Below the pieces are notes generated by a model. It was not told the DNA's origin. It made no database searches and worked only from the letters and a program-made list of their open reading frames with translations. A program made the translations under genes and the position numbers. Below are positions 35,529 to 61,922 of a DNA stretch of 64,000 nucleotides, one piece after another. The stretch comes from Polytrichum commune (Eukaryota; Streptophyta; Polytrichopsida; Polytrichales; Polytrichaceae). The stretch's first letter is position 1; each line of letters opens with the position of its first letter. Where the stretch lies: assembly GCA_950295325.1 (NCBI GenBank), contig OX485809.1, positions 10,976,001 to 11,040,000 on the forward strand, given 5' to 3'.

Positions 35529-36516
35529 CTAAGTGAAGTTGTTCACATTCAACAACGCCTTTTGGCCCACCTCATACTCCACTTCGCGTCCTCCGGCATT
35601 GACTTGCACTCCGTAGCACCTTCGGGCTTTCTCCACCAACAACTTGGTCATCTCCAAGACTTGTTCACGCTTCTTGGCCAAGTCCTCACCATCTTGGTTG
35701 AACTCTAGTGTTGAATGTGCCCCCTTGAGAGCTAGGTTAATAGGTTGGAGCACATCCACTCCATAAGCCACCACCAAAGACCACCCCTTGGTAGCCAAGT
35801 GCGTGGCTACATTGCAATTACACTCCGCTCGACCCACATAGTCCGCCCAATCTCCTTGGTCCGCCCCCACCAAGTTCCTCAAGTATTGCTTCAAGACTCC
35901 ATTCACACGCTCCGATTTCCCATTCATTTGGGAATGCAAGGTCGTGCTAAACCTTAGTTTCATTCCGACCTCCTTAGAGAAATGCATTGAAAATGCACTT
36001 GTGAACTTTGGATCTTGATCCCACACAATCACTCTTGGCAACCCGTGGTGCCTCAACCATCCTTTGAGAAAAGGCTATGCGGTCTCCAACGCGGTGGCGG
36101 TTCCCACAATCGGCACCATGTGTGCCCACTTGGCAAACCGTTCTACCATCAACAAGATGGCATCATATCCATGTGACTCCGGCAAACTTGTGATCAAGTC
36201 CATGCACATACCATGCCATGGCGCCAACGGGATAGGCAACAGTTGCAAGAAGCCGCCTTGCTTTTGGTAAGAGGCTCGGTTCACTTGGCACTTTGATTCA
36301 AGCCTTCACAAAGTGGGCTATATCTTCCTTTATGCACCGCCAATGGTACCTCTTTGACACCATTCTATGGCGGTTTTTTCTTTCTCCTCTATGGCCGGCA
36401 ATAGGACTATCATATTCCTCCTTCAAAACCGATAGCCTCAACTTGCCTTGTGGCACATATACCCGACTTTGTTTGCACTTGAACAATCCGTCCACCAACT
36501 TAACCTCTTTGAGCAC
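35529..36516 (-). pseudogene. Integrase of the gypsy element (frameshifted)
   Basis: 36298-36516 carries a zinc-binding part (SPIAGHRGERKN, KEDIAHFVKA). 36075-36284 continues with YQKQGGFLQLLPIPLAPW and the first catalytic Asp in MDLITSLPESHGYDAILLM. 35529-36056 holds the second Asp in VIVWDQDPKFTSAF and the Glu in GKSERVNGVL. The three catalytic acidic residues are therefore all readable, but in three frames, so no full-length protein can be made. The 5' side joins RNase H remnants at 36779-37141. Confidence 0.8.
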
Positions 36517-36899
36517 CTTGCTCTTGCGAAGCTCACCTAAAAGCTTTTGTGCTTTGGGGTAGTTAATTTACCCCTCCCGTATCTTGCATCACAAGTTTCC
36601 TTTGCCGGCACACATTAGCCACAAGGTTTGGATGGTTCTCATTGCTTGGAACTCTTCCGGTCTACTTCGCGCATCCGGCACCACATTTCCACAGTCCGGT
36701 TTGTGGATCAAATCCACCTTCATAAGCGCCAAACTATCATGCCTCCGCAATGACTTGGCGTTCACTTACGCTTGTATGTCAAAATACTTTTAGGACACAT
36801 TGTCCATGTAGACCTTTGCTTTGTGCGACCCCATATAATGTCGCCACATCTTCAAGCAATGCACTACGGCAAAGAAGTTCTTTGTCATGAGTTGGTTGT

Positions 36900-37560
36900 C
36901 TTCTTTGACAACCATCGAGCTTTATGCTCCCATATGCAATGGCCATCCATCTTACACATAATCCACCATTGGCAAAGGCACTCACCCCCGTATGCACCTC
37001 GAAAGGTTTGTCAAGCTCCGCGAACTTGAGCACGGGCTGCGAAGAGAACTTGGTGTTAAGCTCCCCAAAGACTCGTGACAACATCATCCCACTCTTGGGA
37101 TAGCCATTTCTTCCACAAGTCGCACAAGGTGGGACAACCATCGAGCTTCATGCTCTCATATGCCATGGCCATCCATCTTGCCTCAACATCCGCCAATGGT
37201 AAAGTCACTCGCCCCCGTATGCACCTCAAAAGGTTTGTCAAACTCCGCGAACTTGAGCACGGCGGCGAAGAAAACTTGGTCTTAAGCTCCTTAAAGACTT
37301 GGTGGCAAAGCTCATCCCACTTTTGGGATAGCCATTTCTTGCATAAGTTGGACAAGGTCGGACAACCATCGAGCTTCATGCTCTTATATGCAATGGCCAT
37401 CCATTTTGCCTCAACATCCGCCAATGTTAAAGTCACTCGCCCCCGTATGCACCTCAAAAGGTTTGTCAAAGTCCGCGAACTTAAGCACGGGCGGCGAAGA
37501 GAACTTGTTTTTGAGCCCCCCAAAGGCTTGGTGACAAGGCTCATCCCACTCTTGGGATAG
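36900..37560 (-). repeat. Triplicated RT-thumb/RNase H segment, 228-229 bp unit
   Basis: The phrase encoding a KELKTKFSSPP-like block, an SRSLTNLLRCIRGRV block and a MAIAYESMKLDGC block is present three times head to tail. Anchor words TTGGGATAGCCATTT sit at about 37094, 37322 and 37550. The third, leftmost unit runs on into the normal RNase H region (HDKELLCRSALLEDVATLYG). Tandem growth inside a gene body would disrupt the polyprotein. Confidence 0.8.
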
Positions 37561-37689
37561 CCATTTTCCTCAATAAGTTGAATAAGGTCCTAGCAACCTT
37601 AGAAAACTCTCGAATGAAGTTGTGGTACTAATTGGCTAGGCCAACAAATGACCTAAGCCCTTTTGAATCAAGGGCCAATTCTCCTTTTG

Positions 37690-38279
37690 GATTGCCTTGA
37701 CATTCTTCATGTTCGTCCACCAACTTCATTTATCACCACACACCTCAAGAGCTCAATCTCTCGTTGAGCAAAGTTATTTTTCACTTCTTGGCGGTAATTT
37801 TTTTTGGGCAACACATTGGTGAATACATCCTTGTATTTCACCAACATCACACCAATGTTGTTTGGGGGAGGCCCATCTTTCCTAGCCTCCCCATACGTTC
37901 CTTGGAGTTGCTCCAATTGAACCACGACCATTATGTTTTTTTTTTTTTTTTTTTTAATTCGGTCCATTAAGACCAAATTCAACTTAGGTCCTCCTACCAT
38001 AGGAGTCATTGTTAATTTGAACTTCAATTCTTTGCCATTCTGACACATCATAATGCACCGCAAGCACACCGGCTTGCACCTCACATCTATCATGTGAGTT
38101 TCAAAGAAGGCGGCCTTCACAATGACATGCATTTTATCTATTTCACTTGGTGTGAAATTTTGACAAAAATCCAATGTCCCACGTTGAAAGGTTACATACA
38201 TCGCGGCCTCCTTTGTCTCATGCGGTTCGCCCTTTCCAAACCGCACATTGGTGGGCTTGCCCGCTCTATCAATCGGCAA
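37690..38279 (-). pseudogene. Protease/RT linker with RT core deletion
   Basis: The 190-codon minus frame contains the stretch typical of the protease-to-RT boundary (VKYKDVFTNVLPKK). It then jumps within a few codons (NYRQEVKNNFAQREIELL) to a block that normally lies after the RT palm, followed near 37640 by SFVGLANQ in another frame. About 200 residues that should contain the palm and its catalytic YxDD are absent. A poly-Lys run (T20 on the plus strand at about 37935) is another defect. Confidence 0.75.
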
Positions 38280-38429
38280 GCCCCAACTTCCTTGTGAATT
38301 TTGGGCTCAAGAAGGAGTGGTAGCCTCTTTGTCAACACATGAGACATTTCTCCCATTCATTGAGCCTCAAGGTACAAAAGATTTGGCCTTGGCTTAAGGC
38401 TTCTAGCCTTGCCCACAATGCCATCGTCT

Positions 38430-38740
38430 TACATTCGGTCCTCGGCAACTTGGTTTGGCTTGGTCCGCAAAGCCAACTTTAAACATTTTGTCCGCGGGAC
38501 AAATTGGTTTGGTGCCACAAAACCAATTTCTAATAGTTTGTCCGCAAAACAAACATGTTTTGCCTTGGTAGCACAAAGCCACCTTCCCACACTCCGTCCG
38601 CGGCACGAACATGAATTGCCTTGGTAGGACAAACCCACCTCCCAACATTCCGTCTGCGGCACAAGTATGATTTGCTTTGGAAGCATAAAATCACCTTTCA
38701 ACATTCCGTCCGCGGCACCAACATGTTTTGCCTAAGTAAA
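38430..38740 (-). repeat. Five degenerate tandem units in the gag-like region
   Basis: A unit of roughly 60-65 bp containing a TCCGYGGCACRAACATG-like word and a CTTGGTARSACAAA-like word repeats about five times. On the minus strand it encodes Cys-bearing repeats (VPRTECGKVALCYQG, then LFCGQTIRNWFCGTK). I cannot tell whether this is a modified zinc-knuckle gag region or a private minisatellite. Confidence 0.6.
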
Positions 38741-39135
38741 ATGGACCAAACAATTTGCACTCATTTCTTTGGGACCTACTTTGGCTAAAGCCACTTGTGG
38801 TGATGCGCCGCCAAACTTCTCTTTGGGACCATAGGCTTCAATGCTCTTGCAAACTTCATGGTCCCCACCATGTCCTCAAGAAGCCTTGGGGACTTAAACA
38901 AGGCATCCACCACCCGCTTTTAAAACCCCACCTAAAAGGATGCATTTCTTAGAAAGCTCGTCCGTTTTAGGTGTATCCTTCATTTGTGCGTTTGAATAGC
39001 GCACATAGGCCTTAAGAGGCCCCGGGTGCCTCATTAGCACCAAATCCATTCCAACATCAATACCTTCCAAGCATTTCGAATTGGAATTTCAATCCAACAT
39101 TAATGCCCTCCAAGGTTTTGGGTGCTTTCGGTATT

Positions 39136-39360
39136 CTAGGCCCCAAATGTTTTTTTTTGAGGTTTGCGGGAGCCCTTTTCAAAGCACTCCTCCATTTTCC
39201 TTACCAAATCCACCCTCATGCCCACCATTGTCATTAGAACTAATGGTATGGTCAAATTCCATTTACACATGATCTTTGTTCCAATTTGAGCCTCACAACC
39301 TTTTGAAAACCCCGGGCTCACCATGATAACCCGTATTTTTGATAGCCATGTTTCCCTCAA
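39136..39360 (-). pseudogene. Start of gag-like frame
   Basis: A 74-codon minus frame begins 40 bp inside the 5' LTR and the primer binding site, where gag should start (METWLSKIRVIMVSPG-like beginning, with Lys/Arg-rich end). It is open only as far as 39136. Assignment is by position, not by a recognised gag motif. Confidence 0.35.
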
Positions 39361-39385
39361 AGTGCGAGCTCAAAACTTGGAACCC

Positions 39386-39400
39386 TGCTCTGATACCAAG
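39386..39400 (-). promoter_or_regulatory. Primer binding site for initiator tRNA-Met
   Basis: Directly inside the 5' LTR, the minus strand reads TTGGTATCAGAGC, the standard plant retrotransposon site complementary to the 3' end of initiator tRNA-Met. Confidence 0.9.
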
Positions 39401-40376
39401 TGTCGCAACCCTTGCTAGCCCCCCCTTGACCATCTTGCCAATTTTCAATTCTAGCAAAGGTTACGAGTGGCTAACCCTTCGCATACCGCCATGCTAATGG
39501 TTAGCTCCTCTAACCCCAGACCAATAGTTCATAGGAGGGAACCAACCCTCCTACTTTGCTTTTGGGACTCACCCCTTAATCGGTAACCCATTTCCCCAAT
39601 GTGGACTTCCATCCATGGAAGTCCAATCCTATGTTGATCATCGCGTTGCCGGAGCAACACTACAACAACCCGAACCATACTAGGCAACTATGGCCTCACA
39701 ATAGGCCAAATCCCATGGAGGCCTTGCCGTTCGGCCTCGGGTGGGTGAGGCCACACCACCTCACCCATATAAGCCTCTAGGACTCTACACGGAGCCCCTA
39801 CCCCACCGCCAACCAACCTCTTGTCTCTCTACCAAGAGTTGGGGCCAAGTGGACATTTTCCCTTAGCTGCTGGGCCTAGAACCCCCCCAGGAGCTTCAGA
39901 CCATCATAACTTCCTTGTATGATGTGTGATTCCAACAACCAACCACTCCATCCTCATCTACGCTTCACGTAGATGCCGATGGACTCCTCGCTTGCCCCAT
40001 TCGGGCAAGTCTTGAGGAAGTTATGCCTGTTTGAACCTTGGCAGTCCCGGGAATCACTCCCAGGCACTGCTGTACCAGGGCCCTGTCCCGGGACAGCACC
40101 CCACTCAAATGGCCATAACTCCTAGCTCACACCTCCGATTGAGGTGATCTTGAGCATTCTAGAATCACCACGCCATGAGCTACGCATAGCTCATGGCCTT
40201 ACCCTTGTGCCTCCTAGTCTTCGTGGATGGGAGGCGCTCCCAACGCCCGGGGACCTCACCCACACTAGGATCACTTGGGCCCTCTCACCAACGGCGCCAC
40301 AAGTCCCGGGTGTCACTCCGGGGTCCCCCTTGTGCCCATGGTGTTTCGGCCACTCCTCATGGAGAGGTGCGCGACA
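39401..40376 (-). repeat. LTR (5' LTR of the gypsy element)
   Basis: 976 bp with the same TGTCGC and GCGACA ends as the other LTR. One substitution is seen on full side-by-side reading. Confidence 0.95.
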
Positions 40377-40381: not shown

Positions 40382-42354
40382 AGCTAGAGTACGTAGACAA
40401 TGAAGAATGGAAATGGAGGGTTTGGAAGGGGATGGAGGAAGAGGACACAAAGGTTCAAGGCGTACAAGAGGGGGGGGGGGTTCACAAAGGGGGGATGGAG
40501 GGAGGACGGAGATGGCTTGAGAATGGGAGTGGATTCAGGGGGCTCATCACCATAAGAAAAAACCAGGTTTAATCTTAACTTTGACCACGGGAGGAGTGCT
40601 TAAAGTGGAAGCGGAGGAATGGGGAGGGGTACGGATTTCGGTGGATACATTTGTCCGAGATTCTGGGAGTCCATACACCCTGTATTTACCAGAGTTCCCA
40701 CACTGATGATCCGTTGTTGGCAAGCCTAGAATTCTCACGCATGGTGAAAGACAAAAAGATGTAGCACATCATAAATCTCATGTTCGATCCATATTGTACT
40801 ATCTTGCAACAAGAACCTGATACTAAGGTGAAGGGAAGAGACATGTAAATCCATCTGCATCTATGGGGAAAAGAATGGGGATTCCGAGGCCATTAGCACG
40901 GAGCTTGATCATTTTTGACACACATGGCATAGTAGATGAGGAAGCCATGGATATAAAGAGAAAGAAGAGAGAAATGAGTCCAAAAAGTGAAAAAGGGGTA
41001 CCATTGTCAGGCAACACTAAATTCTAAAGATCGATCACTGGCAGCTCAAAAGATAAGAGAATGTGAAGTAAAGGGTCATTTTATGAGTGGAGTAGAGTGA
41101 TGCCTAGAGAGTAAGATTAAGGGAATTGCAAGGGAACCAGGATGCACACATGAAGGAACCATGTCACAATACAATCCCCACAATTGATCCAGCAACAAAG
41201 TGGAAGAGGAGAAAGTGAGGCACGAGTTTCAACAATTTGAAACGGAGGAAACGAAGAGAACTTAAGAAGATAGGTCTAACGTGGATAGAGGGAAGAGGGA
41301 CCCTGTTAGATTTGAGCAAGATGTGTGATGTGGATGAGATAGGGTCACGGGGGGTGCACTTCATTGTCAAGTTGAACACCACGTGCGATAAAACAAAATC
41401 TACTTTTTACATAAAGCATCACCAAAATGGTTCAAAAGTTTATGATTTTTTTTTCATGAGTAGATATACATAGTATCTATTACATAGTAAAAATTGGTAA
41501 CCAAATTTGATGATTTGTTTTTTTTATAAAACATACCGTTTCTAACTAGAATGACGCAACATTGAACTAAAAAAATTACTACAAAAAATGAAGATGACTA
41601 AAAATTTCAAAAAAATACAAAATATATTATCAATGGTTATGTGTATGTAGATAAAATATCATAATTTTAAAATTTATCTATGGCATGTAATATAGGGTAG
41701 CAAAATTTTATTGCACGTGGTTATGAATGTAAGGGGGTGTGACCCCCCCGTGGATAGGGTCTTGGAATCGACATTTGAAGTTGTAGTCAATAGAGGAAGA
41801 ATGGGAGGACAGTGGTTCACTCGCGCCATCAATGGCAAAGAACGAGCATCGCGCCAATTCTAATCAGAGCGGTTCACACGAAGATAAAAGAGAGGACTCA
41901 ATTAGCATAGTAAGCTTCTCTTGGATGTTATATGCACTAGGGATCTTTCAAGTTTTAGGTTTTTATAAATGTGTCGTTTGAAATCAAATTCTCTAAATAT
42001 GGATGACACCACGCCACACAATAAGACGAGCAACATATGGATGGGGCTTTCAAAACCGAGAAAATATCTTGGGTTGGTTTGTTGAGATTTTAAAATGGGT
42101 GGACTTAATGATATTTTGGGTTGGTTTGTTGAATTTCAATATGGGTGGGTTGAATGGGGGGGGGGGTTCTCAGAATAGAAATGATAGAGATCGTGGGTTA
42201 CAGTTAGAATTTCATGAATATAGTGGAGCATTGTAATACACAAGGCATAATTGGTCGAGGGTGCTACAACCCCATTGCCTCCAATCATTCGTTTAGGTCA
42301 AGGTATAGGGTTCGGTCTGTTGCAAAGGCAACTCCTCGAGAGAGTAGTTGGAGG
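40382..42354. other. Mostly non-coding; right flank of the MULE relic
   Basis: Just right of the retrotransposon (40382-40450) the minus strand continues the MULE frame in proline/serine-rich sequence. G-rich tracts occur at about 40470 (G10) and 42157 (G10). The remaining frames (for example 41237-41473 and 40823-41017) carry no recognisable domain. The segment 41470-41700 is very AT-rich. Confidence 0.35.
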
Positions 42355-47303: not shown

Positions 47304-47509
47304 TATTTTTTAACAAATGCAATACCACTAGATTGTAAAGCTAGGCTCGCTCGCCGTTACTCGGGAAATTTTGGATAGATTTCTTCTCCTCCGCTTAGTT
47401 ATATGCTTAAACCTAGTGGATAGTCTTTCCTTATCTGAGGTGTGATCTATTCGACTCTTCTCCATAACCTCTTTTGGGTTTGAGCATTATGAGATAGTGG
47501 GGAGAGGGG

Positions 47510-48155
47510 TCTCGGAACGGAGAGAGTGTAGGGTGGTGTGGTAGTGGGCGGTGTTGAATGGTTACATGTGTATGTGTGGAATTTAGACTTATGTTGGATA
47601 TTAGATTTTTAAAGTTTTTGGGAAATCTGGTTTACCCTCTTGGTTCCGAGAGGGTGTAGGTAGTGTGCTAGTGGGTGGTCTTGAACGATTACATGTGTAT
47701 GTGTAGAATTCAAATTTATGGTGCAAATTAGATTTTTGAAGCTTTTGAGTAATGTGTGTGTGTGTGTGGGGGGGGGGGGGGTGGAACCGAGAGGATGTTG
47801 GGTGGTGCGGTAGTGGGCGGTGTTGAATAATTACATGTGTATGTGTTGAATTCAGATTTATGTTGGAAATTAGATATTTGAAGTTTTTGGGAAATCTGGT
47901 TCGAGAGGGTGTAGGGTAGTGTGCTAGTGGACGGTCTTGAATGGTTATATGTGTATGTGTGGAATTCAGATTTATGTTGCAAATTAGGATTTTGAATTTT
48001 TTAAGAAATGTGGTCCACCCTCTTGGAACCGAGAGGGTGTAGAGTAGTGTGTTAGTGGGCGGTGTCGAATGGTCACATGTGTATCTATGAAATTCAGATT
48101 TATCTTGGAAATAAGATTTTTGAAGTTTTTGAGAAATTTGGGGGTCCAAGATGTT
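47510..48155 (+). repeat. Five-unit tandem array, 114-141 bp units
   Basis: Units start with GAGAGGGTGTAGGGTAGTGT-like sequence at about 47520, 47648, 47789, 47903 and 48031. Each continues with GTGGGCGGTSTTGAATGGTTACATGTGTATGTGTGGAATTC-type sequence and a TTTTTGAAGTTTTTG tail. Unit length varies by insertion or deletion. One unit carries GT and G13 runs (about 47755-47782). The 196-codon minus-strand frame across the array is an artefact of the repeat. The array ends about 70 bp before the first candidate exon of the next gene. Confidence 0.85.
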
Positions 48156-48226
48156 GTGTCTTAAGTTGTGTTTCATGTATGCAGGCATCATAGTCTTTGG
48201 ATCTTACTCAATCTCAGGGGCTCTCA

Positions 48227-48319
48227 ATGGAGGTCCACGATGTGCAATTGGAGCCTCTCATGGTAGTTGTTGTGACTTTTGGTGACCTTTTACAAGGAGA
48301 GGTGTTTGATTCATAGAAC
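48227..48319 (+). pseudogene. Candidate first exon of the ParB-methyltransferase gene
   Basis: Short frame from an ATG at 48227 (MEVHDVQLEPLMVVVVTFGD) to a TAG near 48317. It is placed here because it is acidic, ends just before a T-rich stretch, and lies between the tandem array and the secure ParB exon. No splice donor is certain. Confidence 0.25.
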
Positions 48320-48415
48320 TTTTGTTTGGATTTTTGTGCTCAAATATTTTTTACAAATTCTAGTATATTCAATTTTCTTGATATCTACTTAATTTTTGCT
48401 TGACTTGTCTTGTAG

Positions 48416-48993
48416 AATGACGTACCGGTTGTACCAGACTCCCTTCAACCTCTAGCTGAGTCGAATTCAGATGATACTGATCTTTTGATACGGAGATCAC
48501 AGAAAGAACACTCCAACACCATGATTCACCGGGTTTGAATAAAACCTCTTGGGAAGTCACGTTTCTCAATTCCAATGTGTCGATTGTGATGTCTTCAATT
48601 TGTTTGGCCCATCAATGATGTTGATGTCACTCGTTTGGAAAATGAGTTCGTGATGGATTATCATGACGGTGACCGATATATGTACGTCTCTCCATACAAC
48701 AACCTCGATGAGGTCCTTCATGTCTCTAATGACCTCAAGGCCTCTTGGGGTTCATTATGGCAAGAAGCCAAAGACGAGTTTGATGCTATTTTCCAAAAAA
48801 TCTCCAACCTTACTCACTTTATGCATAAGATTTTCTACGTGTGGGAAGGGAACCATCGGTTGAGAGCTTGGTGGAGGCACATCAACAAGCATCACTCGTT
48901 GGACAAGAATTGGCACATCTCTATTGACTGTATTGTTGTGGATCCGAGAAATTACACCGTTGTCCTCCCTGATGCCATGAATGATATCAACTA
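48416..48993 (+). pseudogene. ParB-like exon
   Basis: After an acceptor TTGTCTTGTAG, one frame of about 192 codons runs to AACTA|GTGAGT with only two TGA codons. It starts NDVPVVPDSLQPLAES, continues through IKPLGKSRFSIPM, LENEFVMDYHDGDRYMYVSP, NLTHFMHKIFYVWEGNHRLR and ends WHISIDCIVVDP...MNDIN. The EGNHR block with a preceding hydrophobic strand is the signature of ParB/Srx-type folds (phosphoryl- or nucleotide-binding loop). Confidence 0.5.
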
Positions 48994-49054
48994 GTGAGTT
49001 TTGATATTTTTTTTTTATTAATTTTTAAAAATCTTTTGTATTGTCTTTGTTTAG

Positions 49055-50148
49055 GTTCACAGAGCATGACTACGTTAAGGACAACCTCCCCGCCAAGCTG
49101 CTTTGCATTTAGACATTTGAAAAGATGAAACTAGAGGAGTTTAAAGATCTCATTTTCATTGCCGACTTTAAGATGTGCGAGTCCAAGATGGAGAATAAGT
49201 ATCCCCTGATATTAGATGTCTTTGTCAAATTCTTGTACAAGGTAATTTTCCTTTTGATTTTCCTCGTCATTTTCTTTCCATTTCATTTTCTTTCCTTATA
49301 CTGTTCTCTATTTGTTTTAGAGGGAGTTATCCAATTCGGTGGATACCGCAATAAGGTTGTACCGGGAGGCCATTCCCAAGGCTCTCTGATTTGCTCTTGA
49401 GATTTGGGACGCCAGACGAAAGCCCAAGATAGATTGATCAATAGCATCTAATCTCAAAACTTCAAGAAGTTTATTTCTGTCGCCTACAAGAACAACATCA
49501 ATGACTTCTTCTACGTGGTGCTTCTCCTGCATTTATGTTTCTATTTTGTTTTGCATTTTTTTATAATTTTTTTCGTACTTGATGTTTATTTTCTTACATA
49601 ACAGTCTTCTATGTTGTAGATTGACTGTCGTTTCTCCACCTTCTTTGTCACAGATATGTCAATCGAGAAACTCCAAAAGGTGGCTACTACACATGAGGAT
49701 GCCTCCTACAAGGCCAAGTGGCTTTGATGATGACACTCCCCCGCCGATTTCAAAATTATTACAAGTTTCCCTCTGCTCTTCCTCTCAAAGAGAAAGTCCT
49801 CAAAAACTGGCTCAACAAAGCTTCTTTCTGGGCACAGGTGCATCTACAACTCTTATTTCTCTATTTGTTTCTTTCTCTATTTGACACTTCTAACTATTGT
49901 TTTTAAAAAAAAAAATTTAATCATAGTTGGAGAAGGGGGTTGAGGCTCAGATCGCATCATTGAAAATAAATGTTCCGTCGACATCAAGTTATCAACTGGA
50001 TTTCTATGGAGGATATTTTACAACCCGTGAATTATATTGAGCATTGGAGGTTCATTTTCTGGGACAAGGCTCTCTAGATGTATTTTGACGACAAAGAAGT
50101 TTTGAAGTTCATTAAAGGCCTCGATCTCATGGAGCTTGATGAAGGCCT
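49055..50148 (+). pseudogene. Middle exons of the ParB-methyltransferase gene
   Basis: Exons at 49055-49241, 49321-about 49510, about 49615-49837 and 49927-50148 are separated by short T-rich introns with GT...AG borders (for example GTAATT...GTTTTAG at 49242-49320 and GTGCAT...ATCATAG at 49838-49926). Readable pieces are FTEHDYVKDNLPAKLLCI, a TAG, TFEKMKLEEFKDLIFIADFK; LYREAIPKAL; NYYKFPSALPLKEKVLKNWL; and DILQPVNYIEHWRFIFWD. A TAG is created at the 48993/49055 junction. I do not recognise a domain here. It is probably the linker or helical region after ParB. Confidence 0.4.
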
Positions 50149-51790
50149 GTGAGCCCAAATTGATGCCCACATTGGTTGTTAATACTTGTAAAACATTACA
50201 AGTGGTGTTTTGGTGATTTATGATTATTCACAAAAATATGAAAAGAGTGAAGCTTGAAGAAAGCTTAGTTTGAAGCATTAGGCTTTTGTGGAGTGGATTT
50301 AAGTAGGAGAAGGACAAACCTTGGTAAAGTGTGGTAGGTAGAAAACCAAGGTTAGTTAAATGTTTGAATTAGGATCCTTGTTGATCATTTGAGGAAAGAA
50401 GGCTTAGGAGATAGGATTAGAGCCTACAAAGTAGGAGGAGATCTCGAGGGCTTATCGTGAGCCTTGAGGGTGCTTACCCCCTCAAACTCACTATATAATC
50501 CCTCATTCTTCCCTCACTCATCCTCTCTTCCCTTCGTGCTCCAAGGCACCCCACGTGTTATAAGTGTGGGTGTGTTGGAAGCAAGATTGGAGCACATGTG
50601 CGTGCTTAGTTTTTAGTTGGAGAGCCAAGGCTAGTTGGCCTTGAAGAGGGCTTGACCTCTTGTTAGAATTAGTTTTGGTGTGAATAATTTTAAGATATTT
50701 TATGGCTTTAAGTTGTAGTACTTGAGTTCATATTTCTTGGGTATTTCTTGAGTAGTCTAGGTTGTAAGGGGCATAACTTCCGAGCAGAAGAAGATACTTC
50801 GTTGAAATTTAGAGGGTTAGTAAACAACTTGTTTTTATGAACATGGTCAAAATCTGAGGATGTTTGGAGTATTGGATCAGCAGTTATGACATTCTGAACT
50901 TCGTCTACATTTTCTAGCTGAAATGGGCATGACTCCTGGACAGAGGCTTGGAAACACATGAAATTTTGAGGAATTATTTGTTCTTAGGTTTCCTAGTTGT
51001 GGTACAAATTTCAAGTCATTCCGAATAGATGAGAAGGAGATATATCATTCTGAAGTGTTTTCAAGAGTTGCAAACTAAAAAGGCCATAACGTTTTGGCAG
51101 AAAATGAAAATACTTTGAAATTTCAGGGAGTCATAAACAATTAGTTTTTGTGATTGCTCCCAAAATTTGAAGTTCTTTGGAGCCTGTGAGAGGAAGTTAT
51201 GACATTCTGAAATCTGGGTAGACTGACACACTAAAATGGTCATAACTGTCGGACAGAAAATGGGATAGGCTCACAAATTGGTGAGATGTTTTTTGCTTTG
51301 TCTCCCTAGTTACAGATAAAATTTCAGGACATTCCGAGAAGTAATGGGAAAGTTACACTATTAGCTAGTAAAGTCTAGGGGAACAAAGGAAGTTTGCTTG
51401 GTTCCATTAGGGATAACTATTAGTTCATTAAACCAATATAGTGGTTGAAGCGTGAGGAGAAAAATACAATAAGTGACAAGTATTTATCAATACTTAAACT
51501 TGTGTAATTCATGGAATCAATAAGCGAGAACTCATGTAGTAGTGTGGAGTTGACGGCAAGGACTCGCTTCACAAGAGGGATATCTTTGAAGGCATGCGTG
51601 GCCAAAGCAGCCGGGTGGACTTTAGAAAAGTACAAGGATGTGACATTACCCGAGATTAAGGAGTGTAAGAAGACATAGTATAGACTTGGCTAAGTTGTGT
51701 ATATTCCAACGATAGATTGGAATCATACATTGTGTTACAAAGAGAGAAATATCTACATGTCATTATAAACTTCTCCATTCGGGCTAGGAC
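50148..51790 (+). mobile_element. Repeat element A (GTGAGCCCAAAT start) with a conserved short frame
   Basis: It starts TGTGAGCCCAAATT, as does element C at 57534. The start of B (inverted, near 53975) reads TATGAGCCCAAAA. A CTATATAATCCCTC TATA-like box at 50491 is followed by a CT-rich leader. At 50760-51330 a roughly 150-300 bp degenerate internal repeat carries CATAACTKYYGGACAGAAAA and GTTATGACATTCTGAA words. At about 51575-51677 a frame reads GISLKACVAKAAGWTLEK and then YKDVTLPEIKECKKT before a TAG. The 5' junction coincides with a possible splice donor (CCT|GTGAGC), so A may lie within an intron. The exact 3' end is not certain. Confidence 0.5.
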
Positions 51791-52326
51791 GAAATTGAAG
51801 GGTGGAGGCTTTTTTGTGACAAGGCCCCAAAGCAATCAAGCGCGACGCTTACCGGTAATCTTTTGATTTGTCATTTAGTCTATATTATCTTCGTTTCCCT
51901 TCTTTTCTACCATCGTTTTTTTGTTTGATGTTCTTCATTTTGTAAGTACATTCCCCGTGAGCTCGTTGTGAAGAATGTTTTGTCTTCTTTATGCTTGCCT
52001 ACTTTTCTTCTAGATTGGGTCCATGCAACTTGTAAAGTTTCCACTCGTGCACTTGGTGGTTGCTGGTTGGCACTTGGATTGCTCTCGTGGATTCGTGCCC
52101 GAGGTGGAAGAAGCCCTTTGCAACAACCTTGTAAGCTCTGCCCCTGAGGTTATTGAATTAGAAGAGTCGAAAGAAGATAATGTAGCTCCTCCATCCAATG
52201 AGAAAGAGGTTGCTGTGAGGCCAAACCCACCACCCTTAAGCGTCCTAGTCCGGGTGATGGTTTTGAGAATCACATTCACTTCATAACATCATCGTGTGAA
52301 TTACTATGTGGCTCTCATGCCCAAGG
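51791..52326 (+). pseudogene. Two further exon candidates of the same gene
   Basis: The first (about 51791-51853) ends at a GTAATC donor. The second starts after TTCTTCTAG at 52014 and reads VHATCKVSTRALGGCWLALG in one frame and PEVIELEESKEDNVAPPSNE in another before a GTACTC donor at 52327. The intron between them is T-rich. The frame is not secure. Confidence 0.3.
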
Positions 52327-52339
52327 TACTCACTTTATC

Positions 52340-53975
52340 TTAACTTAACTTGTTACATTGTTTTGAATCTCTTGGCGTGTGGTGGAATGTGATTTCTCAA
52401 GGGTCCAACCCGCGGCCTTGGCCACGCACGCCCTTAAAGAGAGTCCCCTAGCACCCTTGATCTTTACTCCCTTTGTATTGACCTTGCCAATATCCTCCAC
52501 ATTCTCCATTCGTGGCACACGTGATCTTATTTTGACAAAGGGATTGCAAGTGTTTAAAAACACTCACCTCCATGATCCATCATTAATACATTCAAAGAGT
52601 CACATACAACCCTACCTAGTCTAATAAACCCCAACCCTTACTTAAGATCAAGGATGGCCTACCATAGCCTAGTGTGATTTAGATTAGTTTTCGGGCTAGA
52701 CAACTAAGTTGCTAGGCCTTGTTAATTGATTGCACTCCCACCGGATCAGTTGTCCCTTGTGCTGGCTTCGGCCTGGAACTCTGGCTTCGGCCTGAACTAT
52801 GGCTGCGGCCTGAACTATGGCTTCGGCCTTGAACTTGCTTCTGCCTGAACTATGGCTTCGGCCTTGAACACTTGCTTCGGCCTGAACTCTGGCTTCGGCC
52901 TGGAACTTGCTTTGGCCTGAAGTGTGGCTTCGGCCTTGAACTTGCTTCGGCCTGAACTGTGGCTTCGGCCTTGAACTGTGGCTTCGGCCTTAACTGTGGC
53001 TTTGGCCTTAACTGTGGCTGCAGCCTGAACTGTGGCTTCGGCCTTGAACTTGCTTCGGCCTGAACTCTGGCTTCGGCCTGGAACTTGCTTCGGCCTGAAC
53101 TCTGGCTTCGGCCTTGAACTTGCTTCGGCCTGAACTCTGGCTTCGGCCTTGAACTCTGGCTTCGGCCTGGACTATGGCTTCGGCCTTGAACTCTGGCTTC
53201 GGCCTGGATTGGTGGCTGCGGCTTGAAACTGTGGCTTCGGCCTTGGACCGGTTGGCTTCGAGCTACATTCACTAACCGACCCTAGGTGCTAGTCGAGCAT
53301 CACCCTCACTCCTTTCTCCTTGTCCTTTGGCTATGTGTACTAACTTACCCCGCTAATGAACTAATCTAACACACAACTACTCTAATAGCTACTTAATCCA
53401 CACACCTTGTCTCAAGCTCTAAGAGCTTCTCCCCCTTTGATAATGAGATAATGAGAGAGAGAGCTTAACTAATTAATCTCACTAAAACTAATAACCCACC
53501 CATGTGGCTCAAGCTCTTAAGAACTTGCTCCCTTGAGAGCGCTTGATGGAGAGAGAGGAAAATGAGAGAAAAAACACCTTAAGTAGCAAAGAGGGAGAGA
53601 GGGAGAGAGAGTGAGGATAGGGTGAGAGGATTAGCACCCCCAATCACAATCCGTTAACCTTCTCCTCCAAAGTAGGGACTAATCCCCATCCACCAAGCTT
53701 TCTTCTTCCTAAACTACCAAGGTGGATCCAAAAGTGGGCATTTAACCCGCGGAGCTCACCTTGCTTCACCTTACCCCCTACTCACATTATCAAGGCATAC
53801 TCTTATTGAATTCAACCTTGAAATAATCACACAACACATTCTAATGCCTAAACTTAAATCCACACCGCAATTCACTTTTTTTATGTTTTGTGAATAATCA
53901 TAACACATCAAAGTCAAACTAAAATTGGTTTCGAAGAGTTAATCACCACATGTGGGCACCATTTTGGGCTCATAG
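52340..53975 (-). mobile_element. Repeat element B, inverted relative to A
   Basis: Read on the minus strand it starts TATGAGCCCAAAATGG near 53975, with a GATTATTCACAAAA word shared with A at about 50192. It has a CT-rich leader, a minisatellite and finally, at 52345-52563, a frame reading ARGLSLRACVAKAAGWTLEK. Its codons match those of element A in protein but differ at most third positions. The two elements are separate insertions in opposite orientation within introns of one gene. Confidence 0.5.
52757..53250 (-). repeat. Minisatellite GGCTTCGGCCTKGAACT
   Basis: About 25 units of 17-25 bp (GGCTTCGGCCTGAACTYT and variants). On the minus strand they stay open for 140 codons, giving Arg/Pro/Gln/Lys-rich repeats of the QAEARVQGRSQSS type. 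It lies inside element B, and element A lacks it. Confidence 0.9.
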
Positions 53976-54747
53976 TTGCACCGGTGAAGGGCAAAGACAA
54001 GGGTGGGAGGTTGCAGCACATGCTTCTTTTTAAGTTTCTACTCATTCTTTCACGAAGGCCTCGGTGCAACGCATTGCTGCTCCAGTGACCATTGTTGTTG
54101 GAAGTCCAACCGCCACTCCTTTTGCCCATGCTCTAGATCTTGTTGGCGTTCCTTCTCATAGCTACGCAACCATTTCATTCGTGCCTCGCAAGAAGAAGGT
54201 TGTTACACCGGATACATTTGTGACTGCACATGGGAGAGCTCATTGAGGATCTCATGAAGACCAAGGTTCCCCCCTCTGGCCTACAACCACATACAAGATT
54301 TCCTAACTAAGGTTTGTGTGTCGTTTTTCTGTTTCCTCCATTCATTTTATGGAATTCAATATTTATTTTCTCGTTTATTTCTCTTTGGATTTTTTCTTTG
54401 CAGGTTGGAGCGGACCGTACTCGATCGATCGCCAAGGCAAAGGTTCACACGGGCATTGATCTACTCTTTGCAAATGCGCCCAAGAACCTGCGTGTGCCGA
54501 GGATCTTGGCCTCATCATCGGATGTTCTTGCATGGAACAAATGATCTTCCACATACTTTGAGGTTTTGTTTGTCTTTGCAAATGCCAACCTTCATGACGG
54601 CGACGGCATTGTCTTCGCGCACTCCGCTGATCTTGATGTCTCTAGTTTAATTCACGATTGGACACACATTGGAAATTTCTACGTTGCCGAAGACTGGTTT
54701 GGCATGAATGACCTTGATCTCCAGTTGCCTACGAATCCTTCGAATTG
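53976..54747 (+). pseudogene. Methyltransferase motif IV exon
   Basis: The secure exon is 54404-54747 (acceptor TTTCTTTGCAG, donor ATTG|GTAAAT). It reads VGADRTRSIAKAKVHTGIDL, LLFANAPKNLRVPRILASS, one TGA after DVLAWNK, then TYFEVLFVFANANLHDGDGI, VFAHSADLDVSSLIHDWTHI and FYVAEDWFGMNDLDLQLPT. The NAPK sits where motif IV of DNA amino-methyltransferases (D/N/S-P-P-Y/F/W) is expected. The change of the first Pro to Ala would inactivate it. The sequence at 53976-54310 preceding it is degenerate. Confidence 0.5.
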
Positions 54748-54839
54748 GTAAATTCTTTTAGTTCTCATCATTTTTTTTATTACCCTTGTATTTTGCATGC
54801 ATTTATTTTTTACTATCCCGTGCATATTTCATGTAGACC

Positions 54840-55094
54840 GGTAAGTTTTGTATTAAGGTCCCCATGCGTAATGGATCCGTTTTGAATGTTCGTACCTCAT
54901 ACTTCAAGGACATGACTTACAATCTCAAGAGAGATGGTTGGCTCAACAACTTCACCGATGAGAAGAATAAGGCGATGAGGGAAGACGGGGTGCCTTGGAG
55001 AGGTGCTTGTGAAAAACTCCATGAGTACTTTGCCTCATCTTCTCTGCCCTCACGGATACGGACGATATTATCATGGATTGGCAATGTGACATTG
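54840..55094 (+). pseudogene. Methyltransferase exon leading to motif X/I
   Basis: It reads TGKFCIKVPMRNGSVLNVRT, SYFKDMTYNLKRDGWLNNFT and EKNKAMREDGVPWRGACEKL. After a one-base frame change near 55040 it continues SALTDTDDIIMDWQCDIG up to the donor ATTG|GTTTAT. The D-x-I-x-D-x-Q-C-x-x-G pattern resembles methyltransferase motif I (D-x-V-x-D-x-F-x-G-x-G). Confidence 0.5.
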
Positions 55095-55195
55095 GTTTAT
55101 TCTTCATCTATTTGTTTTTCTATGTTTCATTTTTTCTTGTACTTATTGCATTTCACATTCATTTCTTTATTCTCACATTTTTTTTGATGTTCTAG

Positions 55196-55360
55196 GGGGT
55201 TCTGTCATTGCTTGCTGCTCCCTTTAACGCCATATTGTGGCGTGTGGTACTTTTGGGCCACCACCTTTCGAGAGAGCCTAAAAGTATCACACAAGCCCTT
55301 CGGTGAAGGTGGCCTGCACTTGCAGGTGCCCAAGCCGAACCCGGATGATAGGTGTATAAC
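55196..55360 (+). pseudogene. Methyltransferase motif I continuation exon
   Basis: After acceptor GTTCTAG at 55195, joining the previous exon keeps frame: DIG|GSVIACCSL, TAA, RHIVACGTFG. This is the GTTxxAAxxLxRxxIGxE helix-strand that follows motif I. A frameshift then gives KPFGEGGLHLQVPKPNPDD. The exon ends at ATAAC|GTGAGT (55361). Confidence 0.5.
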
Positions 55361-56814
55361 GTGAGTAGTTAGATTTTTAAGGGAGATTAAATATGCGTCG
55401 TAGTATCTCCAGAGGTTGGGCCTTAGTTTTTTATTAGTGTGGCTCTAAATTCTACTAACTAATTTCATATCTAGTTCTAACCTTAACCTACAACCTATTC
55501 TACGCGCAGACGCACCAACCTTGAAATCAAGGCAATCCTAATTTGTAAATTAGAATGGTTTTGATACACACCAACCGGGTGTGACTCATATCACCCTAGC
55601 TCAATGAACGGAATAACAACAATTTGATGGACCATTTAATTCTTCATATTTCTTTACTTAATTCTATTTAGTTTTCTAAGCGGGGGAACTTGGCCTAAGT
55701 CCCACCCTTTACACAAATTCTTTCTTAATTACTTGATTTCGGTTGCACCTCCTACTTCACTACATTCACATATTAGGCATCACCCCTTACCTGGTTGGTG
55801 CACCTCTTACCTCAGAACCTTCTAAGGCCTCGTGCAGGTCCTTTGAAGGTCGAGTAACATCTTAAACCCTTCGGACTTCAATGGTCCGACGGGTGGTATT
55901 ACCCTACCGAGTTAAGTTTCCGATTCGTATATCTTGTCAACAAGGGTTTACGATTTATTTTGTATGTTTTAATTGTTAAGTGTGTTTACACCGGATAGAT
56001 CACGAAATTACAACTTAATGGGACTAGGGTGACGGACAACCTGTAGGTTCAACCTGTTGCACGATCTTCATAAATTGGGGCCATTACTCCCAATCTATGG
56101 GGCCAATAATATAATAATGAATTCGCGGGTCATTAACCCCACCTTTCCACCAACAACATTAAGAGTGGTCGTGTCGGTGATTAATCCGACTTACCACATA
56201 CGAAACCTGCTAATAAATGAAGCTACTACCACAAAACATACCAAGGACCCCGAAAACAATGGAGTTGGATATTCCCTTGGCGGTCAAGTGGTCAAGCCAA
56301 TTGACCTTATGAGATAGGTGAGTGGGTTTAGAGATGCGTACCTTAGCCGCGCTTCCTCCAACCCTAAATGGAAGGCTAGCGTTAGTAAATTTACCTCAAT
56401 TCTTCTTAGTTGGTTTGGACTCAATGTAGGCCAAACCGCTACCTCCTTCCTTGCTCCACTTCCCAAACGTCGACCTTGCCTCCTTCTTTGTAACTAGTTT
56501 GGTAGTAAGCGTACCTTAGTTAACAATTAAAATATAAAGTATTTACCGAATACCGAATCTTCTTACGCCGAATACCTCCAATAGGCTTGTGTGCCTCACA
56601 CTAACTAATGAACTAACACTTGCTTAGCTAGCATCTACTAATATTTGCTTAGCTAGTTGTTTTTACTAGCTAGCATATTTTTTCTACTTTGCTATCTTCT
56701 AGCACTACTTAGTTTCATTTTGACCTTCCTTCTTCTAGGCTAAACGCTAAATGAACTAATTTCCCTAAATTCCCTATCAATTCTAACTTTTAATGCTAAC
56801 ATTCTAACTAAAAG
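55361..56814 (+). other. 1.45-kb intron (possibly with an inserted element)
   Basis: A strong donor GTGAGT at 55361 and acceptor CTAACTAAAAG at 56814 join the reading frames DDRCIT and DPAEWWTTQRVHTAFES. Alternatively TGAT at 55346-55349 and 56815-56818 could be a duplication around an insertion. Interior sequence is non-coding, with CTAGCTAG-rich words near 56610-56670. The 86-codon frame at 56057 has no recognised motif. Confidence 0.45.
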
Positions 56815-57500
56815 TGATCCCGCGGAGTGGTGGACCACTCAAAGGGTTCACACGGCGTTCGAGTCGGACATCGACATCTTCAAGTCTCTCCTCCTCCCCA
56901 TGCGTGAGCCTAAGCAAGAACATACTTCCCGGCAATTTGCCTTACAACGGGGGTCCGTTTTTGCTCATCTTCCCGAGAAGATGGTGAAGCGGAATTTTAA
57001 TTTGTTGTGTGTGTAAGTTCAATGTTGGCTTCTAACTTGTCTGTTTGCATTTCTATCTTCTCGGATCGCAATTTTTTGCATGTGCTCATGTTTATGTTTC
57101 TCGTCCGATATGTTTAGAGTTCCAAAGAAGAGCCCGATCAATGCCCTCACTGCGGACATGTTTGCAACCCCTTCAACGACGTTTGAGCTCCCTTGGTATG
57201 TTGTTGAGCTTGCCCATCATTTCATGGAGGCACTGTCCCCACCTCCTACTCATACCCGCCCTTTTATCAACCTAGTCTTGGATTTCCTAGATGTAGAAGG
57301 TGAGCAAGGCGAGGATAGGGATAGACATGATAGTCCAAGCTGTGTGATTAGGCCTTGTGGGTTTGGAGACTCAAGCTCGTATGCTATATTTTTATTTGAA
57401 TTTTTTGAGTTCATTTGTTTTATTTCCATCTACCTTTTGCATATCCCCATTCAACTCGTTCTTTATCTTATATTGATGTTTGATTCCGCTTGCTAACGTC
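56815..57500 (+). pseudogene. C-terminal exons of the methyltransferase gene
   Basis: The first exon (56815-57012) reads DPAEWWTTQRVHTAFESDID, IFKSLLLPMREPKQEHTSRQ and FAHLPEKMVKRNFNLLCV, ending at donor GTAAGT. The second, after GTTTAG at 57117, reads VPKKSPINALTADMFATPST, TFELPWYVVELAHHFMEALS and FINLVLDFLDVEGEQGEDRD. No known C-terminal domain was recognised. A short hydrophobic stretch at 57380-57490 is probably intron. Confidence 0.4.
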
Positions 57501-57839: not shown

Positions 57840-59640
57840 GGGAGGGGGTTTCCTCCGAGAGGATCATGTCTCAGAATTCTCGGACTCGAAATACCAGCCC
57901 CTGGAGGCTGAGATATGCGGAAATTTTTTTGCTCTCTCTCTCTCGGTGCCCTCAGGAGGTTGGGCGATGGTTGTTGCCGCGCTGCCGAATGAAGCAGTTG
58001 GGTGACCCTGAAAAGGTGTGAATGGCTGGGGAGGTATGGACATTTGGTCCATCATTGGCCAGGGGAAGGGAGGTGTGAGTGCAGCTGGCATTACAGTCGG
58101 TTGCAACCAAAGGTGAGCGGTGCTAGATAAACCACCCAAGGGCAGTGACATTCTCGCTCTGCATTTTCGACATGGGAAGGATCTGGGAGGGGCGAGCTGG
58201 TAGCGCCCAAACAACCGGTTTGTGATGTAGATTTCACCGGGATGTGAGGACTGAGAGAGACATCTTAGATTTCACAAGAAGGGATGCCGAGCTGAGGCAA
58301 CAACTGCCGCATTCATCAGGATAATTCTCAAAGTCCGAGAGAAAGGGGGGGTTGGAAGTGGAGTGTTCGGAACGACTACAGAATAAGGAATTGAGCATTG
58401 CCGAACCAACAGGAGTGGGACGGGTGTTATCAGTGAGGATGACAGGGATTACTAGAGCTCTAGCAGCTACTTAATCAATGGCAGCCAGTGGAGCAACCAG
58501 GTTGTCTGAGGGGTGGCAGGCTCAAGAACTCTGGAGTGCTGAGGGACGGCTTCCGCACACCGGTCCAGGGGGGTAGGCTAGGTTTAATTTGGGATTAGCC
58601 TGGGTTTAGGCTAGGGGGAGTTCCAGATGAGTTTCTGCCGGTTGGAGGCTAGGGGGGGTCTCAACAGAACCTGGTCAAGCGGGGGACAACAGATGGCTCC
58701 TTATGGGTCATGGACACCAGAAGAGGGTGGAAGGATGGCACTCTTCCCACCAACAACAAAAAGACCAGAAAACTAATAAATGAATAGATTAGTAGAAGGC
58801 TGGAGGGGAGATCATTAGATTGATAGTTATTAAGGTAAGGTGTTTAGTGAGCTAGCCAAGTATTTGTGTGGAGTGGGGACCCTTGTGTTTGTAAACACTG
58901 GGAGTCATTATAATAAAGATTGAATGTTAAGTGTGCAAACCATAAACTGGACTAGGCCTGAGGCCGATTAGCCATCAAGATTAATAGAGTACATTAGAGC
59001 CAGAGGCACCCACCCGGATTACGACGCACAAGGGTGGGAGTTTATGGCTGACAAAACCACACTACAAGACCTTTCATAAGTAATGCATTCTTCCACGCCT
59101 TCACGTTCTACTTGCTGGTGGAATTAGATTAAGTTATAATCTCCACGGGATTGGGATACCTTTTCAGCAAATTGAACTCAAAACATCTCCAAATTGAACC
59201 CTTTGTGTGACATAGATAACAATTGAATTTTGTTGTTATTCACTTTGTGTACGTTACTAACCTTCTCTTTGGATTTGGTTGGTGGCATGGGCACATGTAA
59301 GGCAGATCCTTCACAACTTTGACGGCTCTCTTAGGAATTATATGCCATCTTCTTTCAAAAATAGTATGTTCATAATGTATAGATATTCCTCAAAGTAATG
59401 TGGTATGTGTGATTACTTTGAGTAGAGTTTGAACCTTGAAGTATGTTTGGTGGGTGTCTCAGGATGCCATTTTGAGTTTGACAATGCATATATTAGATAT
59501 GGAATGCAACATATTATGTAGGGGTACAAACATCTTCACCTTAATAATTTGATACTCAAAGGTTTTGTTCGTTTAGTTAAAGTATATACCAAGAAAGGTT
59601 GTTTATTAAAATATGATGATTACTCCACAATGATAGGGTC
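57840..59640 (-). other. GC-richer segment with a proline-rich minus-strand frame; otherwise spacer
   Basis: 57864-58214 (minus) is open for 116 codons, rich in Pro, Ser and Thr (LTPPFPWPMMDQMSIPPQPF), with stops on both sides. It lies in a block of altered base composition (57840-58760). It might be part of a gag-like or regulatory protein, but I do not recognise it. From 58800 on the sequence is AT-rich and non-coding. 59209-59325 repeats 26833-26955. Confidence 0.25.
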
Positions 59641-60468: not shown

Positions 60469-61922
60469 CAGGGTTGTCTATTGTGTCGTGACGGAGGGTA
60501 ATCCCGGCATAATGTCGTGCCGTCACGACACGTATCCGTCACGACATTATGCCGGATGCTGTCTTTATCCTGACGGACTTGAATTTTACCGATTTTTTTG
60601 TGTAATTACATTAACCCAATTCAGACACGTAGGATTTACAATGTCCACGTGTGATGACATGTCAGCAAAGTAAAGATAAAGTGGGGAAAAATTTACTAGA
60701 GCCCGTCCGCCCCCCCGTCCGCCCCTGTTCCCGACCCCGTCCGCTCCGTTCCCAACCCCGTACGCCCCGTTCCCCCTCCGTCCGCTCCCGTTCCCCCCCC
60801 CGTCCGCCCCAGTTTTTTTTTTTTTTTTTTTTTCCCCCCCCCCCTTCCCCGTCCGCCCCATTTAAAAAAAAATTTCCCCCCCCCTCCGTCCGCCCCTCCG
60901 TCCGCTCCCCCGTCCGCCCCAGTTTTTTTTGTTTTTTTTTTCCCCCCCCCCCCTTCCCCGTCCGCCCCATTTAAAAAAAAAATTCCCCCCCCCTCCGTCC
61001 GCCCCGTTCCCCCCCGTCCGCGGCCCGTTCCCCCCGTCCGCGCCCCGTTCCCCCCCCGTCCGCGCCCCGTTCCCCCCGTCCGCGGCCCGTTCCCCCCCCC
61101 CGTCCGCGCCCCGTTCCCCCCCCGTCCGCCCCTCCGTCCGCTCCCCCGTCCGCCCCTCCGTCCGCTCCCCCGTCCGCTCCCCCGTCCGCCCCAGTGTTTT
61201 TTTTGTTTTTTTCCCCCCCCCCCCCCTCTTCCCCGTCCGCCCCATTTTTTTTTTTTAAAATTTCCCCCCCCTCCGTCCGCTCCCGTTCCCCCCCGTCCGC
61301 CCCGTTCCCAACCCCGTCCGCCCCGTTCCCCCCCATCCGCGCCCCGTTCCCCCCCGTCCGCGCCCCGTTCCCCCCCCTGTCCGCGCCCCGTTCCCCCCCG
61401 TCCGCCCCTCCGTCCGCTCCCCCGTCCGCCCCAGTTTTTTCCCCCCCCCCCCCCCCCCTTCCCCGTCCACCCCATTTTTTTTTTAAAAAATTTCCCCCCC
61501 CTCCGTCCGCTCCCGTTCCCCCCCGTCCGCCCCGTTCCCAACCCCGTCCGCCCCGTTCCCCCCCGTCCGCGCCCCGTTCCCCCCCCGTCCGCTCCGTTCC
61601 CGCCCCCGTCCGCTCCGTTCCCCCCCCCCCACCCCCGTCCGCCCCACCCTCGTCCCCCGTCCGCCCCACACCCTCCTTAGTCGTTTTTTACTACTTTGAT
61701 TTTAACAAAATGGTAAACAAAATGGCAAAATGATTTACCTGGCGCTAGGCATATCCACGACCACGTCGGCATTTTCTGCCACATAGGACGCCACCTTGGC
61801 AAGAAGGTAAGTATTTTACCCACCCTAGTCCGTTCCCCCTATGTTGACCCTACGTGGACCCTATTGTGTCGTGACGGAGGGGTCCGTCACGACACCGTCA
61901 TGACGTCGCGATAGACAACCCT
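60469..61922. mobile_element. Mutator-like non-autonomous element, 1454 bp
   Basis: The ends AGGGTTGTCTATTGTGTCGT and, inverted, AGGGTTGTCTATCGCGACGT are flanked by the perfect 9-bp duplication GCATGGGTT, diagnostic of Mutator-type transposition. Near the left end a CCGGCATAATGTCGTG / CACGACATTATGCCGG pair makes a hairpin. Near the right end GTGTCGTGACGG is repeated in both orientations. Most of the interior is the C-rich minisatellite. No transposase is encoded. Confidence 0.8.
60704..61675. repeat. C-rich minisatellite, CCCCGTCCGC units with poly-T/poly-C blocks
   Basis: About 70-90 units of CCCCGTCCGCC/CCCGTTCC(C)n type, in a higher-order pattern. Blocks of units end in AGTTTTTTTT...CCCCCCCC, then TTCCCCGTCC[A/G]CCCCATTT, then TTTAAAAATTTCCCCCCC, four times (about 60810-60880, 60920-60990, 61193-61270, 61434-61500). 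The plus strand is almost free of G except in the unit word. Long frames on both strands (up to 281 codons) are artefacts. Confidence 0.9.

Follow-up and report, generated by a model that had tools for sequence, protein, structure and literature searches.

Proteins that join an N-terminal ParB domain to a C-terminal beta-class methyltransferase are enriched in phages (PMC12704722). Among mobile elements, PMC6446971 attributes to Mutator-like elements a target site duplication of 8 to 11 bp, a SWIM domain, and additional genes that are often antisense (the word "methyltransferase" occurs 0 times in its main text); VANDAL elements carry VANC anti-silencing proteins (PMC10398659), and C5 cytosine methyltransferases are reported from retrotransposons of Symbiodinium and Klebsormidium (PMC5890265). 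Here, we analyze a stretch of 64,000 nucleotides (nt) from Polytrichum commune (contig OX485809.1, positions 10,976,001 to 11,040,000 of the forward strand), referred to as the window below. A preliminary description of the window, made from the letters alone, had placed at 48190-57500 the relic of a gene for a ParB-like domain fused to a beta-class DNA methyltransferase. This picture was incomplete, as 48190-57500 covers just one gene of a larger element. The gene is the cargo of a large, high-copy transposon, as shown by its two-gene anatomy, its copy number, the linkage of the two genes, and a complete copy (copy B).

In the most probable reading, the window contains a single dead copy, about 30 kb long including insertions that came later, of a DNA transposon present in high copy number, which has terminal inverted repeats (TIRs) and a target duplication of about 10 nt. 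The element comprises two divergent genes, in the order transposase-like gene (with a SWIM-like pattern), tandem repeats, and a gene of at least 12 exons; the product of this second gene starts with a ParB-like domain, continues with a middle part, and ends in a domain resembling beta-class amino-methyltransferases. The window copy extends from 29045 to about 59192. Its parts outside the second gene, given with their matches to three further copies (A, B, and C), are as follows.

29045-29088, no strand: left TIR of the window copy; its 44 nt match the first 44 nt of copy B at 86% identity and, when inverted, the right end of copy A
30238-33321, minus strand: relic of the transposase-like gene covering its middle and C terminus (42-77% identical to copies A and B by tblastn, with several stops)
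33310-40376, no strand: long terminal repeat (LTR) retrotransposon inside the transposase gene, foreign to the element (976-nt LTRs 99.9% identical; 5-nt duplication ATAGA)
40562-40948, minus strand: relic of the transposase-like gene covering its N terminus (37% identical over residues 1-132 by tblastn, with 4 stops)
47497-48141, no strand: tandem array with a unit of about 128 nt, 5' of the second gene (longer arrays here in copies A, B, and C)
59061-59192, no strand: right subterminal region (69-70% identical to a segment of copies A and C that stops about 100 nt short of their right ends)

The retrotransposon, with LTRs at 33310-34285 and 39401-40376, is young and splits the transposase relic, which shows 68.7% nucleotide identity over 3.2 kb. 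The terminal bases of the right end of the window copy were not found. A candidate left end at 47363 (GGGAAATT) was dropped once the inverted right end was matched at 29056-29088.

Copies A, B, and C have in common long tandem arrays (kilobases) upstream of the gene and the right end ...TTTCCC, and in copies A and B the transposase-like gene lies on the other strand (open frames of 766 and 555 residues in copy B). Copies A and B, located on two chromosomes, are 98.7% identical over 6.9 kb. Copy B is complete, with a length of about 17.48 kb, the ends GGACGACACTTGTATGTGAGCG and CGCTCACATACTTGAATTTCCC, 33 identical inner TIR bases, and the 10-nt duplication TTCCACAATC on both sides. The genome searched is assembled into 64 contigs (408 Mb in total), of which seven are large; with exon 2 of one relative as the query, 1298 candidate places for the gene were obtained, of which the best 150 were scored, as were the best 150 of 1493 candidates for the transposase. 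At least 87 of the 150 gene matches have a transposase match within 30 kb (this count is a lower bound), and in 85 cases it lies upstream on the opposite strand (median distance, 9.1 kb), whereas 200 random placements gave at most 11 within 30 kb and at most 4 upstream and opposite. These results also bear on the idea that the gene belongs to a multicopy host gene family, like the liverwort sperm N4-cytosine methyltransferase genes, that is merely found among transposons. Its many introns and the purifying selection described below would suit such a family, but the linkage of 85 of the 150 matches to a divergent transposase, the complete copy whose TIRs and target duplication enclose both genes, and the near-identity of copies A and B on two chromosomes speak against it; the element boundaries largely refute this idea, which we consider very unlikely.

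Several points weigh against the transposon as drawn here. The target duplication is known from one copy, where it is located within a 24-nt tandem array, and its length is uncertain. Among the 150 scored gene matches, 63 are without a scored transposase match within 30 kb; these may be separate gene copies or may have a partner outside the scored set. The random placements preserved contigs but not regional repeat clustering, of which the orientation count (85 of 87) is independent. In addition, the two pieces of the transposase matched no transposase family in Pfam (the best row, FERM_M, had an E value of 0.0089, below the cutoff), and a comparison with the Protein Data Bank (PDB) gave no row. 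The transposase contains a SWIM-like CNC...CKH (CxC...CxH) pattern, seen by eye and without a Pfam SWIM match. With Mutator-like elements (PMC6446971), the element has in common TIRs and a second gene on the opposite strand, and it may also share a duplication in the range of 8 to 11 nt and, by its SWIM-like pattern, a SWIM zinc finger; it differs from them in a transposase without a Pfam MULE match, in its long tandem arrays, and in its methyltransferase-like second gene. Since no transposase profile matched, we do not claim that it is a Mutator-like element. No description of an element of this kind was found in the open PMC literature, judged on titles and the beginnings of abstracts.

The second gene occupies 48194-57378 on the plus strand. 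Its parts in the window are as follows.

48194-48301, plus strand: exon 1 remnant (matched weakly to copy C by tblastn, at 39% identity)
48416-48994, plus strand: exon 2, ParB-like domain with EGNHR (48845-48871; 72 homologues, 150 scored genome copies)
49056-49241, plus strand: exon 3, middle region (tblastn to copies A, B, and C; GT..AG borders)
49321-49518, plus strand: exon 4, frame broken
49620-49838, plus strand: exon 5, frame broken
49927-50149, plus strand: exon 6, frame broken, with an insertion at its end
50147-53975, no strand: stretch between inverted ends (106 nt, 74.5% identity), mostly inserted DNA around one exon
52022-52166, plus strand: exon between exons 6 and 7 (GWHLDCSRGFVPE; 72% identical to copy C at the nucleotide level and correctly ordered)
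53974-54311, plus strand: exon 7, linker (tblastn to copies A, B, and C)
54404-54747, plus strand: exon 8, motif IV position (DLLFANAPKNL, 54458-54490; commonest family letters ADVPEN)
54837-55094, plus strand: exon 9, PWRGA block and first half of motif I
55196-55236, plus strand: exon 10, carrying the rest of motif I and interrupted by an insertion (relatives P0148, P0171, and P0173)
56810-57014, plus strand: continuation past the inserted stretch (FESDIDIFKSLLLPM; 73.9% nucleotide identity to copy C from 56855)
57119-57378, plus strand: exon 12 (tblastn to copies A, B, and C)

The three peptides noted in the preliminary description are present on the plus strand and in the order it gave: EGNHRLRAW, DLLFANAPKNL, and DTDDIIMDWQCDI (55055-55093), the last followed by G at 55094, a GT...AG intron at 55095-55195, and in frame GSVIACCSL at 55198-55224 (coordinates in the window counted by hand). 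For the exon containing EGNHRLRAW (exon 2), 72 of 77 candidates were homologous at an E value of ≤1 (best, 1.5e-52; 47-78% identity in the table), as were 106 of 136 candidates for the exons with the other motifs (exons 8 and 9; best, 5e-73), which rules out chance peptides. Relatives with the same intron read MDWQCGVG, intron, and then GGSVIACRSIQRHIVALESD or close variants, and sequences like GGSVIACRSIQRHIVALESDIDIFKS come after the splice-interrupted motif I in relatives. From these exon-level homologues and the motif I interrupted at the same splice site in relatives, we identify the blocks as true exons of a gene family, and the continuity of motif I across the intron is more than chance. 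When the gene was read through with X at stops to make search queries, the full text of 978 amino acids (aa) found no homologue as a whole-protein query; exon-sized queries succeeded, and their matches were exon-sized frames.

The window copy is itself one of the 150 scored genome copies (C7:11024443; E value, 9.2e-84; 2 TGA). Its translated exon pieces contain 11 stops, a count that leaves out exon 7 and the end of exon 5 and that includes one stop, at the end of the exon 6 piece, located in inserted DNA. Together with frame changes within exons 4, 5, 6, and 9 and large insertions, these stops make this copy dead, and the earlier account of an intron-containing, now dead gene with GT...AG borders was correct. 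An end like CTGTGAGCCCAAA, or its reverse, occurs three times, at 50147, 53975, and 57532. The two at 50147 and 53975 face each other (74.5% over 106 nt) around the exon at 52022-52166, and they probably belong to two insertions or to one insertion that captured the exon; a single inserted element at 50147-53975 was considered and dropped, as there is a true exon inside. The inserted DNA also holds, at 52762-53243, an 18-nt tandem repeat (CTGGCTTCGGCCTGAACT) in about 27 copies.

Other copies of the gene show that it is under purifying selection, with the strongest evidence for exon 2. From 30 exon-2 copies fetched, 20 were stop free over 552 nt, 9 had a stop or another length, and 1 was unread; the 20 stop-free copies gave a median ratio of nonsynonymous to synonymous change (dN/dS) of 0.104 (181 of 190 pairs). 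For the methyltransferase exons, selection was assessed in one comparison between two lineages only, with proportions of synonymous and nonsynonymous differences of 0.69 (pS) and 0.20 (pN) for exon 8 between copies B and C and with dN of 0.26 and dS of 3.0 for exon 9 between copies A and C. Exon 8 carries a stop in copy A and none in copy B. On the other side, constraint is weaker in exon 10 (dN, 0.36; dS, 1.13), and the exon 2 ratio is 0.27 in the closest pairs (n = 13) versus 0.09 in distant ones (n = 101), so that relaxed selection applies to many recent copies.

Homology of the C-terminal domain to beta-class DNA amino-methyltransferases is supported through a sister gene as the intermediate. 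Searching the genome with the Pfam N6_N4_Mtase model gave five places, two of which, on contigs C1 and C4, are near-identical copies of this sister with a 577-residue frame. One of them (L044) has motif IV DIPY and motif I DLSVGTG, and the other (L043) has DIPD and DLFVGTG; these are the same-genome paralogues that came out where an intact one with DPPY had been sought. The L044 frame matched Pfam N6_N4_Mtase with 32.4 bits (E value, 1.1e-7; cutoff, 26.7), and the sister found methyltransferases in the PDB (best E value, 0.019). In profile comparisons with hhalign, the sister matched 12 known enzymes with a probability of 97.0, and the window family matched the C-terminal domain of the sister with a probability of 96.3 and a score of 67.5 (≤18.4 in 30 column shuffles). 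The two are colinear (ParB-like exon, 99.6; middle part, 98.1; C-terminal domain, 96.3). Spliced and compared with the PDB by phmmer, the domain of copy B found DpnA, DNA cytosine-N4 methyltransferases, and CcrM at E values of 0.004-0.6 in 5 of 7 rows; the entries named DNA cytosine-N4 methyltransferase are among the weak matches (E values, 0.24-0.28).

Direct comparisons gave less. The window family had no match to Pfam PF01555 above the cutoff, and neither half of the read-through gene text matched a Pfam family at an E value of ≤10. Of two spliced genome copies, one reached an E value of 0.1 (12.9 bits of the 26.7 needed) and one gave nothing, and against the 12 known methyltransferases the family directly obtained a probability of 4.0 and a score of 24.5 over 63 columns (≤13.9 in 30 shuffles). 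The beta-class label proposed earlier thus holds for homology and for motif IV preceding motif I, by way of the sister, but not for a direct PF01555 match, and significant matches to both PF02195 and PF01555 were not obtained for the window family. Bacterial-type amino-methyltransferases occur as host enzymes in eukaryotes, where bdelloid N4CMT and liverwort DN4MT are active N4-cytosine methyltransferases; the window family would resemble them in having such a fold in a eukaryote. With the retrotransposons of Symbiodinium and Klebsormidium (PMC5890265), it shares a DNA methyltransferase domain in many copies of a mobile element, although those are C5 enzymes in retrotransposons, and here an amino-methyltransferase-like domain is found in a TIR DNA element.

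The active site of this domain is altered. Catalytic motif IV has the form (D/N/S)PP(Y/F/W), whereas the window copy has NAPK and the family mostly A-D-(V/I)-P-E-N, with column counts of D 46 and N 6, V 48 and I 5, P 50, E 50 and K 9, and N 62; the intact family form is mostly D(V/I)PEN and not DPPY. Because motif IV is mostly D-(V/I)-P-E, catalysis is doubtful, and because the defining catalytic feature is lacking in both the window copy and the family, we do not class the family as active DNA methyltransferases. The main alternative is that the protein, despite its D-(V/I)-P-E, is active on DNA as an N4-cytosine or N6-adenine methyltransferase and marks the DNA of the element. It would account for the retention of motif I and R.IVALE and for the constraint on exons 8 and 9, and DIPY is present both in the sister L044 and in one annotated phage adenine methyltransferase (L053). 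An aromatic residue in motif IV is generally needed in amino-methyltransferases, however, and at its position the relatives have E in 50 cases and K in 9 (the four commonest letters make up 61), while the sister L043 has D; we regard an active enzyme as unlikely.

Motif I is kept in relatives after motif IV (MDWQCGVGGS...R.IVALESD), as is most of the domain, and motif IV is mostly D-(V/I)-P-E; from this we infer binding of S-adenosylmethionine and DNA with poor or no methylation. The K found in place of E at motif IV in 9 relatives counts against this reading. We tentatively propose a pseudo-methyltransferase that would work on the DNA of the element that encodes it and might, for example, counter host silencing or help transposition, much as accessory proteins do in certain other DNA transposons. 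Such a role would be the simplest reading, although we hold it with less than even confidence.

The N-terminal domain has the (D/E)G.HR motif that is found in ParB-like domains, as VWEGNHR in 52 proteins and as variants in 13 more, with DGNHP in the sister. ParBc (PF02195) matched none of 38 family members, DUF6551 was matched in 3 of the 38 (best E value, 0.012, below the cutoff), and a profile comparison against a set of eight ParB domains, of which seven came from phage records and one from contig C12, scored 14.7, with shuffles reaching up to 16.2. Profile searches of the PDB with the N-terminal part returned unrelated rows, and PHROGs gave no support for ParB. The ParB-like label given before thus has the support of the motif and not of the profile tests. 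A true ParB-CTPase fold, with which the domain would serve as a DNA clamp dependent on nucleotide and load the C-terminal domain, is conceivable but somewhat short of probable: GNH of the motif is invariant in 42 and in 13 aligned sequences, the domain order is that of the phage fusions, and DUF6551 gives a hint, but ParBc is unmatched, the profile score lies within the shuffles, and the PDB profile rows are unrelated.

The phage ParB-N6_N4 fusions (PMC12704722; L041, L045, and L047) resemble the window family in their N-terminal ParB, their C-terminal beta-class methyltransferase, and the placement of motif IV before motif I. They lack introns, and their motif IV is DPPY or nearly so (DFPY in L045), in contrast to the intron-rich window family with D(V/I)PE, which is carried by a eukaryotic DNA transposon and whose own ParB homology is putative. 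Horizontal acquisition, as formerly suggested, found no backing, since the searches turned up no closely related sequence from bacteria or viruses: pattern scans aimed at these two groups gave 12 and 35 pattern matches, none of them confirmed, and phage tblastn gave weak partial matches in 7 records and nothing better. The remnant of an integrated large DNA virus might also have supplied the ParB-like and methyltransferase genes, in keeping with the enrichment of such fusions in phages, but no relative was confirmed in viral contigs or well matched in phages, and the unit consists of two spliced genes and TIRs (its other open frames were inspected by eye only); we give this source next to no weight.

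Transposons are usually the targets of DNA methylation. Our results suggest that eukaryotes may retain, as the cargo of transposons, a protein architecture of bacteria and phages, and the altered active site hints that mobile DNA recruited a bacterial-type methylating enzyme for a new job. It is possible, though we would not count on it, that an entire class of eukaryotic DNA transposons took up a phage-like ParB-methyltransferase fusion whose catalytic motif then changed, and that purifying selection maintains the protein, across many hundreds of copies, as a nonmethylating DNA reader or anti-silencing factor. If true, an amino-methyltransferase-like protein of the element's own, with an active site altered throughout the family and under purifying selection, would represent a new way for mobile DNA to handle host chromatin, and it makes testable whether pseudo-methyltransferases serve as epigenetic readers.

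Several further observations were made. Just upstream of the sister gene, protein kinase-like frames are present (G000:C1:9657599-9658760, L058; Pkinase E value, 2.6e-5, 24.2 bits, below the cutoff of 31.7), perhaps forming one fused gene with it. The other three N6_N4_Mtase places, L041 (on C12) and L040 and L042 (on C10), looked bacterial or phage-like by eye; these two contigs, which hold a ParB-N6_N4 methyltransferase fusion and other methyltransferases, are probably assembly contaminants. Rfam and tRNA scans found nothing. In copy B, positions 8873-10046 of the element hold a tandem repeat with a unit of about 485 nt, which includes a 204-nt piece about 80% identical to the window LTR (33791-33993). 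The window segments 26836-26947 and 59204-59315 form a 77% identical pair, the second of which occupies the place of the missing right end of the element; the pair is therefore another repeat family. Very C-rich tandem arrays of about 1 kb, with a period of about 21, are located at 60700-61690.

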